Positions 18,308 through 33,732 of a stretch of DNA of 45,134 nt are shown piece by piece. How positions within the stretch are numbered: the first letter of the stretch is position 1; each line of letters begins with the position of its first letter. The translations under genes and the position numbers were made by a program. The notes below the pieces were generated by a model. The model ran no database searches. It saw nothing but the letters and a program-made list of their open reading frames with translations, and had not been told where the DNA came from. Source of the DNA: Desulfobacteraceae bacterium (GTDB lineage: Bacteria; Desulfobacterota; Desulfobacteria; Desulfobacterales; Desulfosalsimonadaceae); NCBI GenBank assembly GCA_021737045.1, contig JAIPES010000014.1, positions 1-45,134 on the forward strand, given 5' to 3'.

Positions 18308-18314
18308 TGTCTTT
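18308..18314. repeat. 7-bp target site duplication TGTCTTT (right)
   Basis: Matches 18000-18006 exactly and ends on the last base of the nuoBCD stop codon, so the insertion point was immediately behind that stop. Confidence 0.7.
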
Positions 18315-20668
18315 TACCTGTCAATATCTGCCGGGGTATAGTCATGAGCGCCGATAATGGCAATAAAATCGGCAATGGTTGCCCCTTTGCAGATTTTGGC
18401 AAACGCCTGGACATTGGTAAAGCTCGAAGCCCGGATGCGCACCCGATAGGCAAAGCCCAGCCCGTCGCTGACCACGTAGTAGCCCTGCTCGCCCCGGGGA
18501 TTTTCCGTTGCGGCATATGCCTCGCCCCTGGGGATTTTCGGCCCCCGGGAGACATTGATAAAATGATGGATCAGGCTTTCAATGTCTTTTAGCATGTCCT
18601 GTCTTTGGGGCACCACGTACCGATAGTCCTCTGAGATATATCTTCCCCCGGGCATTTGGTCGATGACCTGCCGGATGATCCGGACACTTTCCCGGCATTC
18701 TTCTGCCCGCAGGCGAAACCGGGTCCAGCAGTCGCTGACCGTATCGGTCGGCACGTCAAAATCCAGGCTGCCGTAAACCGAATAGGGCATGTTTTTGCGC
18801 AAGTCCCAGTTAACCCCGGTGGACCTGAGATTGGGGCCGGATACCCCCAGATCCACTGCATCGTGTTTTTCCATCAGGCCCACATCCACGGTGCGGGCCC
18901 TGAAAACCGGATTTTTCAGTGTGATTTTTTCGTACTCGCCAAGCCTTTTGGGAAATACCCGCAAAAACGCCTCCACAGGCTCCTTCCAGCCTTCGGGAAG
19001 ATCTGCCGCCACGCCGCCCGGCCGGAAAAACGCGGGATGGAGCCGTCCGCCGGAGATCATCTCCACGATATCCATGATCATTTCCCGGTCCCTGAAGGCA
19101 TAAAAATTGGGCGTAAGCGCTCCCACGTCATTTGCCGTAATGCCCATGTAGGCCATGTGGTTGGCAATCCTGGAAAGTTCGGCAAAAAGCACCCGGATGT
19201 ATTCGGCGCGTTCAGGCACGCGTATGCCCGCTATTTTTTCCAGGGCCAGGACGTAGGGAAACTCGTTTGCCGCCCCCACCAGATAATCCACCCGGTCAGT
19301 GTAGGGGATATACTGTATCCAGTGCTGGCGCTCGCCGATTTTTTCCGCCCCCCGGTGGTGGTAGCCGATATCCATGTCCAGGCCGGTGATGGTTTCCCCG
19401 TCCATTTTTGCGATATACCGGATAATGCCATGGGTGCCGGTGTGGTGCGGGCCGATGTTTAAGACATAGGACTCGCCGTCTTCATCCACTTGGTAAAACT
19501 GCTCTCCGGCCCTGGGCTGGAGCCTGTGCGCATCTTCTGCGGTATAGGCGGGCATTTCAGTGGCCCGTCCCGTGTATGATTTCCGCAGCGGATGGCCCTG
19601 CCAGCCCTCGGGCATCAAAAGCCGGCGCAAATCCGGATGCCCGGAAAACCGGATCCCGAACATGTCATAGATTTCACGCTCGTACCAGCCGGCGTTTTCC
19701 CAGAGCTCGTGGATGCTTTGCGTCTCCGGGTATCTGCCGTACAGGGCCGCCCGGAGACGCACCCGCACGGCCGGATCAAAGGCCAGCAGATGATAGACCA
19801 GGGTGAAATCCGGGTAATCCTCCGGGTTCTGCCGGGCGGACTGGTCAACTGCGGTGTAATCCTCCAGGCGCAGAAAGCGCGGGCCGGACTCGTATTTGAG
19901 AAACCGCAGAACCTCGGCGGCCCGGCTTTGGTCCACATCAATGGTGAGCATGTCAGCGCTTTTTTCCGCAGGCGCCACGGCATCACCAAAACGCCGGACC
20001 AGTTGGGATTTGACTTCGTTTTCAACCGGGGACAGGGTAATTTGGGCCGCAGGCGGGGTCCACATCAATTGCGCCCGGTTTTCATGGAAATCAGGCGGGG
20101 TCACGGAACTGCCCCGAACGGGAATGCCGTTCATGCCCGGCCCACGGGTGTCGCGGGTCTTGGTTTCGCCGTCCACCAGCACGGGGGAAACGGTTCCCTG
20201 GCTGCCCCCGGCCATATGAAAAACCTTGCCCGACGGCCGTTCCTGGGATTGGATTTTTTCCTGCAGCCGGGTCAGGCCATGGAGTACCGCTTCAGGCCGG
20301 GGCGGGCATCCCGGGATGTAAACATCCACGGGCAGGATCTGGTTGACCCCCTGGACCACCGAGTAGACATCATACATTCCGCCGGTATTGGCGCACGATC
20401 CCATGGATATCACCCATTTGGGCTCGGCCATCTGCTCATAAAGGCGCAGCACCACCGGCGCCACCTTCTTGAACACGGTTCCTGAAACAATGAGCAGATC
20501 GGCCTGTCTTGGCGAAAGGCGCAGCACCTCTGCGCCGAAACGGGCAATATCGTATCGCGGCGTCCACGCGGTGATCTCTTCGACAAAGCAGCACGACAGC
20601 CCGAAATACATGGGCCATAGACTCGTTGCCCGGGCCCAGTTGATGACACTGTCCACAGCCCGGCTCAC
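18314..20668 (-). CDS. nuoBCD: NADH-quinone oxidoreductase fused subunits B-C-D
   Basis: One polypeptide carries three complex I subunits. The NuoB part (about 1-165) keeps all four ligands of cluster N2: [17 protein letters not shown] and PGCPPRPEA. The NuoC part (about 215-370) shows [26 protein letters not shown]. The NuoD part (about 395-784) has [13 protein letters not shown] with the quinone-site histidine in THG, the YTDRVDYL tyrosine and the [17 protein letters not shown] aspartate. A linker of about 50 residues joins B to C. The track start (20725) overlaps nuoA by 61 bp. A GTG at 20668 gives a GTGA overlap with the nuoA stop, and a GTG at 20656 has aggtga upstream; one of these is more likely. 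Fused CD and BCD forms are known elsewhere. Confidence 0.92.
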
Positions 20669-21087
20669 CTGCGGTCGGCTCTTTTGTCCTTTCCGTCCTT
20701 TAATGCCAGTCCTCCCTTGCACCATATGTAGACCAGACCCATAAGCAAAACAAAAATAAAAAAGGTGATCTGCACCATGGCCTTTGCCCCGAGGGCTTTG
20801 ACAGCCAGGGCCCAGGAAAAGATAAATGCGCCTTCCACATCAAAAATCAAAAAAAACACCGCCACCAGAAAAAAGGGCACCGGATAGCGAATCGGTGCTG
20901 ATCCGGTTGGGATAATCCCGCTTTCATAGGGGCGAAGCTTGTTTTCATTGACACGTTTTTCACCCAGAAAGCCGGTGAGAAACATCAACACCGCCATCAT
21001 CAGAAAAACGGCAAAAATAAACGCCAGGAAGCTGACCACTGCCGGTGTCCAGGACGAAAGCGCATATGTGTAATTTACCGGAACCAT
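20665..21087 (-). CDS. nuoA: NADH-quinone oxidoreductase subunit A
   Basis: First gene of the complex I operon, a small three-helix membrane subunit. [37 protein letters not shown] is the family signature, with Ser where the common sequence has the loop Cys. The ATG at 21087 (MVPVNYTY, 140 aa) is preceded by ggggag at good spacing, so the 12 extra residues in the track are not used. The gene is divergent from maf across about 200 bp. Confidence 0.93.
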
Positions 21088-28695: not shown

Positions 28696-29244
28696 CTAGA
28701 ACGTATTTTGCCGGCAGAATTCTTCCACGGATTTGCGCTTTGGTGCAGAGGGCACCTTGGAGGGGTATCCCATGGGAATCAGGCTCACCAGTTCATAATT
28801 TTGCGGCACCTTGAGCACTTCTGCGGCCTTGTCCTGGTCAAACAGGCCCATGATCACCGAGCCCAGCCCCAGGGAATGCGCGGCCAGAGACAGGTTCTGG
28901 GCGGCAATGCCGAGATCGAACATAAACCAGTCACCGAACTTGGTGGTCACCTGCCCTTTGTAATAGCCGGCCTCGTTTAAGCGGGCGCACAATGCCAGCA
29001 CCACCGGAGCGCTACCAACGGCCTTGTGGGCCGGATTGGACTTGGGCACGGCCTCCTGCTGCAGCCGGGCCTTGATTTGCGGATCGGTTACCGCCACCAC
29101 CTCCCAGCACTGGGTATTGGCCCAGGAAGGCGCCCACTTGACAGCTTCGAGCACGGACTTGAGCACGTCATCGGAAACGGGTTTGTCTTCGAAATTACGG
29201 ACGGTGCGTCTTTGGTAAATGGCGTCGAATACTTCATTGCTCAT
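28696..29244 (-). CDS. Nitroreductase-family FMN protein
   Basis: FMN-dependent NAD(P)H oxidoreductase fold. IYQRRTVRNFEDKPVSDDVLKSVLEAVKWAPSWANTQCWEVVAV is the FMN-binding start, and AAQNLSLAAHSLGLGSVIMGLF plus LVSLIPMGYPSK complete the family pattern. The length (182 aa) is typical of the short, single-domain group. The substrate cannot be assigned from sequence. The ATG overlaps the ispD stop by four bases. Confidence 0.88.
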   Translation of the reverse strand: MSNEVFDAIYQRRTVRNFEDKPVSDDVLKSVLEAVKWAPSWANTQCWEVVAVTDPQIKARLQQEAVPKSNPAHKAVGSAPVVLALCARLNEAGYYKGQVTTKFGDWFMFDLGIAAQNLSLAAHSLGLGSVIMGLFDQDKAAEVLKVPQNYELVSLIPMGYPSKVPSAPKRKSVEEFCRQNTF

Positions 29245-29963
29245 GGTTTGGCCTCCGCTGTTGATTGGTTTTCTAAAAGCCGGGCAGCCATTTCCAGGTC
29301 TGCCGGTGTGGTGATCTTGATATTGCAGCGGCTGCCCTCGATGATGCGCACACCCACACCCATGCGCTCCACAAGGGAAGCGTCATCGGTTCCGAGAAAT
29401 CCGTCAGCCGCCGCTTTTTCAAAAGCCCTTTGGATGAGTCCGGATTCAAATGCCTGGGGGGTCTGGGCCAGCCAGATCCCGTCCCGGTTTACGGTTTCGG
29501 CAATCACGTTGCCGGCGTCCACCCGCTTAAGCGTTTCTGCGGCAGGAATGCCCGCAATGCAGGCCCCGGTTTCAGCCGCCATGTCAATACAGCCGGAAAT
29601 GAGCTTGACCGTGACAAAGGGACGCACTCCATCGTGGATCACGACAATTTTTTCAGGCCGGTCCAGACTGGCCAGCCCGCGTTGCACCGAGTCCTGCCGC
29701 TTTCTGCCCCCGGCCGTGAGTTTGACGGGTTTTTGGGTCTGTACCAGGGGCAGAACCGATTTGCGGCAAAACGCAAAATCCGCCTCCGGAACCACAAGGC
29801 AGATATCGGCGATCCGGGGATGTGCGGCAAAAACCTGCAGGGTGCGCGCAAGAACGGGCATGTCCCCGAGCGCAAGAAACTGCTTGGCAACCGGCGAACA
29901 CATGCGCACCCCGCGTCCGGCTGCCACGATCACGGCTGAGGCCATATGCCGGGTTTCATTCAT
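29241..29963 (-). CDS. ispD: 2-C-methyl-D-erythritol 4-phosphate cytidylyltransferase
   Basis: Third step of the MEP isoprenoid pathway: CTP + MEP gives CDP-ME. VIVAAGRGVRMCSPVAKQFLALGDMPVL is the nucleotide-binding loop, followed by GGRKRQDSVQRGL, VVIHDGVRPFV and GTDDASLVERMGVGVRIIEGSRCNIKITTPADLEMA. The track start is a TTG at 29969; ATGs at 29963 (240 aa) and 29945 are better. It lies 16 bp after the HPr-domain gene. IspF is not in the window. Confidence 0.93.
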   Translation of the reverse strand: MNETRHMASAVIVAAGRGVRMCSPVAKQFLALGDMPVLARTLQVFAAHPRIADICLVVPEADFAFCRKSVLPLVQTQKPVKLTAGGRKRQDSVQRGLASLDRPEKIVVIHDGVRPFVTVKLISGCIDMAAETGACIAGIPAAETLKRVDAGNVIAETVNRDGIWLAQTPQAFESGLIQRAFEKAAADGFLGTDDASLVERMGVGVRIIEGSRCNIKITTPADLEMAARLLENQSTAEAKP

Positions 29964-29979
29964 GAACAAATCACAAAGC

Positions 29980-31299
29980 CTATCGCAGGTATTTCAGGCT
30001 TTTGGGAAGCGGGATGCCCTTGCCCATCCGGTCTTCGCCGTAGTTGACCCCGGCAAGGACCTCAATGTCTTTTAACGCCCGGACATCACCCTCAAAACTC
30101 ACCTCCTTGATGCCTTCCTTCTGTATCATACCCCCGGCCCACTGGATATCGAGCACGCTGCTGGCGTCAAAGCGGTGATCGCCCACCACCAGATCCACCT
30201 GCCCGCCGTAGCGCTGGACCACCTTGGCCACGAGCAGGCTGGGCCGGCAGTGAAACCCCAGATCCTTTGGAATGGGCACCTGAATGGCGCCTTTTTCCAC
30301 GTTTTCCTTTAAAATTTCCCTGGCCTCTTCCCGGCCGGAGGCAAAGTAGTGGTTGACGTAATAAAGGCCGTAATTGATGGTGCAGTCCAGCAGGCGGTCG
30401 GGATCAACAAGTTCACAGAGCTGCCTGCGCACCACCCGGTAGATGTTTTTATACCCCACCTCAATGAGATGCCGCTCGTAGAAATGCAGAAGCCGGCCCA
30501 TGATCTGCAGAAGGTGGAATATCACGGAAAAATAGGAACGGAACTGCTTCAGCCCCCGGTTACCGTACCGGAATCCGCCGTGGATCACATAGGAATCAAA
30601 CGAGGACTGCAGGTTGTGCACCAGCATTTCAAAGCGCCGGATCTCCACTTCGTTGACTTTTTCAGGCACCAGGGCCTTTAACCCGTCCCGGTCGTATACC
30701 TCGTAGAATTCATAGGTGTCAAAATCATCGGCAATGGAGAGAAACTCATTGGCCACCCGGACGATCTGGTTTCGCTGCTGGTCCTTGTCCTCGTCATAAA
30801 TATTGTAGTCCAGCATCTCGCCGGAAGAAACCCCGGGAAAATTGGTTTCCGGATATCCGCCCTCGGCCGGTTCGGCAATGCCGAGCCGGCTGGCTTCCGC
30901 CAAAATGGCCGGGGCCAGGTTGGACAGGGATCCGGTGATAAAGGAGAGCACGATCTCCCCGTGAATCCGGAAATCCTCCTTGGCGTCAATGTCATAGAAC
31001 ACCAGGCGGTTTAATATATGCTTCTGGGTGTATCCGGCAAGACTTAAATGGCGGACTGCCGCGGCCAGCTCCCGGTAATAGTACCAGTCTGCATTGTTTT
31101 TGGCCCCGTGGAAATCCAGGAAATCCTCTAGCAAATGGGAGTTGGTGATCAGTTTTGAATAAAGACTTTTGGTAAAGGATTTCTCCGGGTAGGAACAGGT
31201 GCGGATAAACATGAGGCAGCGCATGTAATTGTGGGAATAAAACCGCACCCGCTCTCCAAAAGAAAGATCACAAAGCCCGTTTGCCGCATCGATTTCCAT
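29980..31299 (-). CDS. Uncharacterised protein with C-terminal HPr-like domain
   Basis: 439 aa. The last ~95 residues resemble the phosphocarrier HPr: DLGFHCRPSLLVAKVVQRYGGQVDLVVGDHRFDASSVLDIQWAGG, with the His-x-Arg-Pro phosphorylation site (His near 350) intact. The first ~340 residues are soluble, rich in aromatic and charged residues (NADWYYYRELAAAVRHL, FRSYFSVIFHLLQIMGRLLHFYERHL), and I do not recognise them. No PTS enzyme is in the window. It starts 9 bp after sufB/D and runs into ispD, so it is probably co-transcribed with Fe-S assembly. A regulatory or scaffold role using a phosphorylatable histidine is conceivable, but the function is unknown. Confidence 0.8.
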   Translation of the reverse strand: MEIDAANGLCDLSFGERVRFYSHNYMRCLMFIRTCSYPEKSFTKSLYSKLITNSHLLEDFLDFHGAKNNADWYYYRELAAAVRHLSLAGYTQKHILNRLVFYDIDAKEDFRIHGEIVLSFITGSLSNLAPAILAEASRLGIAEPAEGGYPETNFPGVSSGEMLDYNIYDEDKDQQRNQIVRVANEFLSIADDFDTYEFYEVYDRDGLKALVPEKVNEVEIRRFEMLVHNLQSSFDSYVIHGGFRYGNRGLKQFRSYFSVIFHLLQIMGRLLHFYERHLIEVGYKNIYRVVRRQLCELVDPDRLLDCTINYGLYYVNHYFASGREEAREILKENVEKGAIQVPIPKDLGFHCRPSLLVAKVVQRYGGQVDLVVGDHRFDASSVLDIQWAGGMIQKEGIKEVSFEGDVRALKDIEVLAGVNYGEDRMGKGIPLPKSLKYLR

Positions 31300-31308
31300 T
31301 ACATCCGC

Positions 31309-32508
31309 CTATATTGCATCATGTTGGGTCTCGCTGACCACCTGGTCGATTTCCTCGGCCAGGCCTGGCGGCAGCCCTTCGATGTCCACGTTTAAAAATC
31401 CGCGGACAATGGTGGAAACAGCGGTTTCCTCGTCAAGCCCCCGGGCCATGAGATACTCGATTTCCCGCTGGTCGATCTTTCCCACAGCCGCCTCATGGGA
31501 CATGTCCACTCCCGGCACCCGGCCCACCAATTCCGGAATGGCGTGCATAATGCCCTCTTTTAAAATCAATCCCTTGCATTCCAGATGCCCCTTGACGCCT
31601 TCGACCCGGGCATCCATCTCGCCCCGGGCGATAATGGTGCCGCCTGTGGTAATGGCCCTGGAAATGATTTCCGCCCGTGCCCCGGGATGCTCCAGAATCA
31701 CCGTGGAGCCGGTATCGAGCTCGCATCCGGGCGGAGCCACAAGGATACTGTTAAACCGCGCCACCGAATCTTTGCCGGCCAGGTAGGTCACCGGGTTCAT
31801 CTGCAAAGATCCCACGGGACGCAGGGAAATATAATTGGACACCACTGTACCGCCTTCTTCCACGTAAATGCCCGTGCGGGGGCGCACCTCGATCTGCTCG
31901 CCCCAGCGATGGATCATGGTAAAGTGCAAAGTGGCGTTCTTTTTGACATAAAATTCAGAAACCCCCACGTGCAGGCCGCTGCGAAGATGCTCGGCAGTTG
32001 CGCAGCCGGTAATAATATGGATGCTGGAATTTTCCTCGGCAATCACCACGTTGTGTACATGCTGGGACAGGCCTTCCTCTGAAATATACAGGCAGGACTG
32101 GACCGGCTCGGCAACCTGCGCCCCGGGAAGCGACCGGATGAAATATCCCTCATGGGGGATATCACGGGTCATGCGGGTATAATCGTCCTTTTCCGGGGAA
32201 ACCAGGCGCCACATGTAATCGCTGAGCCAGTCGTGGGTTTGCAGGGCCTGGCTGATACCCATGATTTCAACATCTGCGGACCCGCAGCCGGAATGGAGAA
32301 CCGAGCAGTCTTTTTGAATAAAGGTTCCGGAACGGTTCTGCCCGGTGATATCCACACCCACATTGAGCCATTGCCTGGCTTCCTCGGGATCCACATTGTC
32401 GAGCTGCTCCAGATAGGCATGCGGATCTGCCTGGTCCTTGTATCCGGTCTTGTGGCTGCTGTTGTCATCCCGGGCTGCCGCCTTGTTTTTATCATCTAGC
32501 TCGCGCAT
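31309..32508 (-). CDS. sufB: SufB/SufD-family Fe-S assembly scaffold
   Basis: Beta-helix scaffold that, with SufC, builds Fe-S clusters. The C-terminal part has EHPGARAEIISRAI, GHLECKGLILKEGIMHAIPELVG with a conserved Cys, and MSHEAAVGKIDQREIEYLMARGLDEETAVSTIVRGFLN with the His-Glu typical of SufB/D. The track begins at a GTG at 32517; the ATG at 32508 has ggag eight bases upstream and is preferred (399 aa). Only one SufB/D-type gene accompanies sufC, so this looks like the minimal two-component system (SmsB-like) rather than the full SufBCD. Confidence 0.88.
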   Translation of the reverse strand: MRELDDKNKAAARDDNSSHKTGYKDQADPHAYLEQLDNVDPEEARQWLNVGVDITGQNRSGTFIQKDCSVLHSGCGSADVEIMGISQALQTHDWLSDYMWRLVSPEKDDYTRMTRDIPHEGYFIRSLPGAQVAEPVQSCLYISEEGLSQHVHNVVIAEENSSIHIITGCATAEHLRSGLHVGVSEFYVKKNATLHFTMIHRWGEQIEVRPRTGIYVEEGGTVVSNYISLRPVGSLQMNPVTYLAGKDSVARFNSILVAPPGCELDTGSTVILEHPGARAEIISRAITTGGTIIARGEMDARVEGVKGHLECKGLILKEGIMHAIPELVGRVPGVDMSHEAAVGKIDQREIEYLMARGLDEETAVSTIVRGFLNVDIEGLPPGLAEEIDQVVSETQHDAI

Positions 32509-33254
32509 CGAAAACACTCCTCATAGCCGTATTCACGGATCCATTGCAGAATTTCCCGGGCGTTTCTGGCACAGCACAACACGCCGTTATACAGCACATG
32601 TCCCTTGTCTGCGGTGATGTAGTTTAAAATGTGGCCGGTATGGGTGATAACAAGGGCGGATTTGCTCTTTTTCTCGCGGTGGGCAATGGGACCCTCCTTT
32701 TCCCGCTGACGCACACCCCGGCCGAGCAGCTCATTGATAATCTCGCCGAGCAGCACCACGTTTTCCAGGTCCACGCCGGACTCGGGCTCGTCGAGCAGCA
32801 CCAGATCCGGACTCTGGGCCATGAGCTGCAGCATTTCAGATCTTTTCATCTCACCGCCGGAAAAGTTCAGGTTCAGATCCCGGTCCAGGAAATCCGCGAA
32901 ATTGGCCTTTTGGGCCAGCTCTTCCACATTGGCGGGCTGTTGCCCCGCACACAGGGAGACCACGTCCCGGGTTTTGAGTCCGTTTATGGCCGGCGGCCGC
33001 TGAAAGGCCACGCCGATTCCCAGCCGCGCCCTTTCGTGGATGGGCATTCGGGTGATGTCCTCGCCTTTAAACCAGATATGCCCGCTTTTCACCCGGTAGC
33101 CGGAAAAGCCCATGATGGTCATCATCAGGGTGGATTTGCCCGACCCGTTGGGTCCGAACAGGATATGGGTTTCGCCCTCGGGAATCTCCAGGCTGATTCG
33201 GTTTAAAATGGTGCGGCCCTCAACCTCCACCACCAGATCTTCGATTTTTAACAT
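32496..33254 (-). CDS. sufC: SufC-type Fe-S assembly ATPase
   Basis: ABC ATPase partner of SufB/D. Walker A is FGPNGSGKSTLM, the signature is NFSGGEMKRSEMLQLM, Walker B is LVLLDEPESGVDLENV and the H-loop is VITHTGHILNYI. A basic insert of about 20 residues (GRGVRQREKEGPIAHREKK) sits between Walker B and the H-loop, unlike E. coli SufC. The ATG at 33254 (MLKIEDLVV, 252 aa) has gagagg six bases upstream, so the ten extra residues in the track are rejected. The 3' end overlaps sufB by 13 bp. Confidence 0.9.
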   Translation of the reverse strand: MLKIEDLVVEVEGRTILNRISLEIPEGETHILFGPNGSGKSTLMMTIMGFSGYRVKSGHIWFKGEDITRMPIHERARLGIGVAFQRPPAINGLKTRDVVSLCAGQQPANVEELAQKANFADFLDRDLNLNFSGGEMKRSEMLQLMAQSPDLVLLDEPESGVDLENVVLLGEIINELLGRGVRQREKEGPIAHREKKSKSALVITHTGHILNYITADKGHVLYNGVLCCARNAREILQWIREYGYEECFRCAS

Positions 33255-33303
33255 AACCATCCTCTCATGTATCCATGCAGACAAATTGCGCAGAAAAAAT
33301 TAC

Positions 33304-33695
<392 letters not shown>

Positions 33696-33703
33696 GCAAA
33701 TCC

Positions 33704-33732
33704 ATTATAAAACATAAATCAACCGATGGCAA
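33704..33732 (-). promoter_or_regulatory. Sigma70-type promoter of rnpB
   Basis: On the minus strand TTGCCA (33732-33727) is followed by 17 bases and a perfect TATAAT (33709-33704), then eight bases to the deduced first base of the RNA at 33695. The promoter lies within the last codons of the upstream zinc-ribbon gene. This is the best promoter match in the window. Confidence 0.8.

Follow-up and report, generated by a model that had tools for sequence, protein, structure and literature searches.

The window, i.e., the whole stretch of DNA analyzed here, comprises 45,134 nucleotides of a contig from a Desulfobacteraceae bacterium (JAIPES010000014.1, assembly GCA_021737045.1). In the frame spanning positions 29980-31299 of the minus strand, it carries a gene with an ATG start codon that encodes a protein of 439 aa and that we denote HPrF, for HPr fusion. 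HPrF is separated by 9 bp from the stop codon of sufB upstream and by 10 bp from ispD downstream, in agreement with the first-pass annotation, which had placed the gene 9 bp after sufB/D and ahead of ispD. The open reading frames, homologs, profiles and models described below define the following features:

29241-29969, minus strand: ispD, the downstream neighbor, adjacent to HPrF only within Desulfobacterales (profile match, survey of loci)
29980-31299, minus strand: HPrF, 439 aa (open reading frame, homologs, alignments)
30034-30294, minus strand: C-terminal HPr domain, residues about 336-422 (profiles, predicted fold)
30157-30159, minus strand: Ser381 codon, equivalent in position to HPr Ser46 (sequence, alignments)
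30250-30252, minus strand: His350 codon; this residue is the putative phosphorylation site (sequence, conserved HxRP motif)
30295-31299, minus strand: N-terminal all-helical domain, residues 1-335 (AlphaFold2 models, conservation)
31309-32517, minus strand: sufB/D-like gene, the upstream neighbor in about half of the Desulfobacterales loci (profile, survey of loci)
32496-33284, minus strand: sufC, in the same cassette as sufB (profile, survey of loci)
33304-33691, minus strand: rnpB (RNase P RNA, class A), which adjoins HPrF upstream where the suf cassette is absent (survey of loci)

Homologs of HPrF with intact frames were found in 277 of the 291 genomes of the class, with ~58-97% identity among the class matches listed. 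Because of this conservation, HPrF is confirmed as a real gene rather than a chance frame. Beyond the class, its occurrence is scattered within the same phylum, and a search of plasmids with HPrF yielded no match. The genome scan for HPrF loci covered the best 80 of 245 loci, all from close relatives, and the phylum sample included 38 HPrF carriers, 17 within the class and 21 outside it.

The C-terminal domain of the window HPrF scores below the family cut-offs for both Pfam PF00381 (17 bits, cut-off 23) and TIGR01003 (E = 1.4e-4; 21.7 bits, cut-off 47.9), but the PF00381 cut-off is exceeded by more than a dozen of its homologs, for example, those from genomes G574 (38.3) and G419 (34.1). Furthermore, a profile built from 25 diverse HPrF members retrieved solved HPr proteins from the PDB at E = 2.6e-6, and hhalign matched the HPrF profile to the free HPr of these genomes with 96.8% probability (E = 2.4e-10). 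In the full-length AlphaFold2 model of HPrF (68 sequences, mean pLDDT 85.9), residues ~336-422 adopt the HPr fold (TM 0.78, prob 1.00 to 3le1), with the secondary structure elements in the order beta-alpha-beta-beta-alpha-beta-alpha of an open-faced beta sandwich; the model confidence is low near the active-site loop, residues 347-352. Thus, the profile matches and the predicted fold settle the identity of the HPr domain despite the weak score of the window copy.

The presumed phosphorylation site, His350 within G-F-H350-C-R352-P353, is intact, and the H350-x-R352-P353 motif is retained in 130 of 130 homologous loci (a few of which repeat one gene), whereas outside this motif the aligned homologs diverge to ~30% identity. 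Ser381 is also kept in nearly all homologs. These results bear out the initial description of a C-terminal HPr domain with an intact His-x-Arg-Pro site and support as plausible the suggestion that the domain is phospho-regulated. Control of HPrF by HprK was considered and dropped, given that no match to PF07475 over the cut-off was detected in the 16 genomes searched. A separate observation concerns the free HPr of two genomes (G497 and G397, represented by loci L171 and L172, respectively), which carries HARA instead of HARP at the active site; the fusion in these genomes keeps HSRP.

The N-terminal domain, residues 1-335, is predicted to consist of nine long and two short helices (pLDDT 88.3 when folded alone). 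Its conserved polar motifs are E58-x3-D62-x-H64-G-A, W72-x4-E77, H228-N-x2-S232-x2-D235 and H272-x2-E275-R276-H277. In the alignment, conserved polar residues within these motifs (E58 and D62; H228, S232 and D235; H272, E275, R276 and H277) recur at one-turn spacing, a pattern that hints at a ligand-binding or active site. Searches of Pfam, NCBIfam, PDB sequence profiles, PDB folds and viral folds produced no credible match to this domain, so that the profile and structure searches left it as unrecognized as the first-pass annotation had found it. Matches to ABC transporter, GPCR and clusterin folds were discarded as helix noise (TM < 0.3), and individual members gave weak Pfam matches to DUF2096_N and Ferritin that were judged to be due to chance. 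HPrF defines a family of helical domains without a known relative. Beyond Desulfobacterales, no conserved neighbor of HPrF hints at the role of this domain.

Within Desulfobacterales, the genes are arranged in the order Nif3 - zinc-ribbon protein - rnpB - (sufC - sufB) - HPrF - ispD. Whereas ispD adjoins HPrF in 92 of the 95 loci of this order, sufB does so in only 46 of 91. On the gene tree, gain and loss of the suf cassette account for 16 changes, at least 9 of which are forced by supported branches. Of the 21 carrier genomes tested, 10 lack a SufB of the window type, and another four encode it at an unlinked site. Outside Desulfobacterales, both suf and ispD are non-adjacent in all 20 loci, where the flanks vary by family and, as identified by eye, include pheST-ihfA, ffh-rpsP, and fabF-like, dnaG-like or kdsB-like genes. 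The adjacency of HPrF and ispD is characteristic of a single order, and the turnover of the suf cassette together with the flanks outside the order indicates, therefore, that HPrF is independent of either pathway. A phospho-regulated link between Fe-S supply and isoprenoid synthesis, which the first-pass annotation had put forward, is thus largely refuted by the neighborhood survey. The same annotation had named two outcomes that would speak against such a link, homologs scattered with no suf or isp association and homologs lacking the histidine; the former was found outside the order, and the latter was not, as HxRP is invariant.

Several observations pertain to the flanking genes themselves. 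The sufC-sufB cassette (31309-33284 in the window) is repeatedly gained or lost at a single precise position, which lies between rnpB and HPrF, and most of the tested genomes without the cassette at this site lack this SufB altogether. The SufB/D-like protein (31309-32517) scores far under every NCBIfam cut-off for SufB, SufD and SmsB (at best 157 versus 650), which marks the two-gene SufBC system of the window as divergent. The rnpB region (33302-33732, minus strand) includes a match to a sigma-70-like promoter at 33704-33732 (11/12) and a terminator-like hairpin at 33302-33315. Elsewhere in the window, inside the complex I gene cluster, an 803-aa open reading frame (18314-20725) appears, by eye, to combine NuoB, NuoC and NuoD in one chain.

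The initial remark that no PTS genes are present holds for the window but not for the genome, which encodes on other contigs free HPr, two EI proteins, PtsN, RapZ and EIIA-Man. Specifically, contig 36 carries ptsH-ptsI-smpB, with ptsH encoding the free HPr (G000:C36); contig 3 encodes the EI with a GAF domain; and contig 141 carries lptB-rpoN-hpf-ptsN-rapZ-EIIA-Man (smpB, lptB, rpoN and hpf were assigned by eye). EI, PtsN and EIIA-Man were all found in 16 of the 16 genomes tested, and the N-terminal HPr-binding domain of EI was present in each of the 20 cases checked.

In the phylum sample, free HPr is present in all 17 in-class carriers. By contrast, HPrF is the only HPr match in 11 of the 21 carriers outside the class, all of which keep an EI with the HPr-binding domain. 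In the five EI loci read from such genomes, the EI retains the active-site GG-x-TSHT and has no HPr of its own; the gap between rsmI and ptsI, where ptsH sits in genome G593, measures -14 to 125 bp in these loci and holds no ptsH. Free HPr is missing from 11 of the 38 carriers versus 32 of the 357 non-carriers (Fisher p = 0.001, kinship ignored). In G419, one of the genomes without free HPr, HPrF is followed after 26 bp by rapZ; in the window genome, this PTS-Ntr gene resides beside ptsN. Because G554, from the same family as G419 (f108), retains a second HPr, fused to RsmI, the losses of free HPr in G419 and in the class of G324 are separate, so that at least two lineages have lost it. This second HPr of G554 (L182:4187-5347) is encoded in one frame with an RsmI-type methyltransferase (TP_methylase and PTS-HPr domains), directly before ptsI. 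Moreover, the HPr domains of fusions that are the sole HPr score closer to canonical HPr than those that coexist with free HPr, with means of ~29.6 and ~23 bits, respectively (p = 0.007, in a test that takes no account of kinship and assigns 19-20 to scores that were not reported).

Considering all these observations, we lean toward the view that HPrF is a trans-acting carrier and regulator that is phosphorylated by EI within a soluble relay of the PTS-Ntr type. Given that certain relatives retain no HPr other than the fusion, HPrF is likely to carry or sense phosphate in a regulatory relay that acts across the cell, and not to connect Fe-S with isoprenoid synthesis. In this view, suf, isp and rnpB are neighbors of HPrF but not its pathway. 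Under this scheme, PEP would charge EI, and EI would phosphorylate His350 in the C-terminal HPr domain. Where free HPr is absent, HPrF could pass the phosphate on to PtsN and EIIA-Man, and where it is kept, as in the window genome, HPrF would be a second substrate of EI. The helical domain might serve as a sensor or output, reading or gating whether the HPr domain is phosphorylated. The data establish the domain architecture, the invariance of HxRP, the full set of relay partners and the existence of genomes that combine an intact EI with the fusion as their sole detectable HPr, from which we infer that HPrF is phosphorylated, that it transfers phosphate onward and that the N-terminal domain has a part in this. 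The genomes in which the fusion is the sole HPr next to EI lend indirect support to a phosphocarrier function between EI and EIIA.

The invariance of HxRP in a protein that otherwise diverges, the predicted HPr fold and profile match, the consistent presence of EI, PtsN and EIIA-Man, the sole-HPr carriers with EI in at least two lineages, the missing ptsH in the five EI loci, the position of the G419 fusion beside rapZ and the more canonical domains of sole-HPr fusions all favor an EI-phosphorylated relay protein. Conversely, the window copy falls under the Pfam cut-off, model confidence is low at residues 347-352, no conserved neighbor outside the order points to the role of the N-terminal domain, and 32 of the 357 non-carriers also lack HPr, some perhaps while possessing EI. 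The apparent loss of free HPr could reflect genes missed in incomplete assemblies, but the five local losses of ptsH argue otherwise.

An alternative that we consider unlikely is intramolecular phosphotransfer, whereby the HPr phosphate would move to conserved His, Asp or Glu residues of the N-terminal domain, and this domain would act as a PEP-driven kinase or a phospho-switched enzyme. The persistence of polar residues at one-turn spacing at ~30% identity would, judging from the alignment, suit a ligand or catalytic site better than a scaffold, and the helical model is compact and confident; however, the profile and fold searches detected no similarity to enzyme or metal-site families, and no metabolic gene travels with HPrF outside the order. 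Rather doubtful, and ranked below it, is a repurposed HPr fold, that is, a phosphorylation-independent binding module that would dock the helical domain onto EI, PtsN, EIIA-Man or RapZ. Such repurposing is favored by the coexistence of free HPr in every in-class genome of the phylum sample and by the drift of the window HPr domain below the family cut-off, but a module of the Crh type loses the histidine, whereas the H, R and P are invariant here, and EI would be left without a partner in 11 genomes. Finally, a phospho-regulated link from SufBC-mediated Fe-S assembly to isoprenoid synthesis via IspD, although suggested by the adjacent same-strand genes in the window and the nearly constant ispD neighbor in Desulfobacterales, is highly improbable and was rejected given that the suf cassette, which changed 9-16 times on the tree, places sufB next to HPrF in only about half of the Desulfobacterales loci, that 14 of 21 carrier genomes either lack SufB or encode it at an unlinked site, and that neither neighbor is found among the family-specific flanks outside the order.

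Compared with known systems, HPrF shares with HPr and NPr (PtsH, PtsO; PF00381) the fold, the HxRP motif, the Ser46 equivalent and the co-occurrence with EI, PtsN, EIIA-Man and RapZ. However, single-domain HPr and NPr are stand-alone proteins of ~85-95 aa, whereas the HPr domain of the 439-aa HPrF is fused behind a helical domain of 335 residues, has diverged below the Pfam cut-off in the window copy and is followed by an extra conserved C-terminal tail, NYGED-xMGKGxPLP-YLR. Bacillus Crh has an HPr fold, lacks the active-site His and acts without an active histidine; HPrF resembles it in existing beside canonical HPr and differs in that the His is always present. As in multiphosphoryl transfer proteins (FruB/FPr, HPr-EI, EIIA-HPr), HPr is one domain of a larger protein, but HPrF lies outside sugar transport operons, no match to an EI or EIIA domain was found in the 25 HPrF members searched, and the partner domain is unrelated to PTS modules by profile and fold. 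The HPr fusions surveyed previously join HPr to EI or EIIA domains only (PMC2405797). Among the open papers searched, none described an HPr that is fused to an unrelated helical domain and occurs near-universally in an order. HPrF likely already bears an automatic annotation along the lines of 'HPr family phosphocarrier protein'.

The closest functional parallel to the role we favor is PTS-Ntr, the soluble regulatory relay PtsP-PtsO-PtsN (PMC13104625), to which the rpoN-hpf-ptsN-rapZ-EIIA-Man cluster of the window genome corresponds; the difference is that the carrier is (also) fused, HPrF being the only HPr found in 11 genomes. Tentatively, and with the odds somewhat against it, HPrF might represent a new class of PTS signal proteins in which an HPr domain is permanently coupled to a helical sensor or effector domain not described before. 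In that case, it would have replaced free HPr in several anaerobic lineages, where it would be the sole carrier linking EI with PtsN and EIIA-Man, and it would serve almost all Desulfobacterales as a core regulator. An HPr fusion near-universal in Desulfobacterales, along with lineages that have EI but no free HPr, offers a direct handle on the regulatory PTS of sulfate reducers: one protein, one histidine and clear partners.
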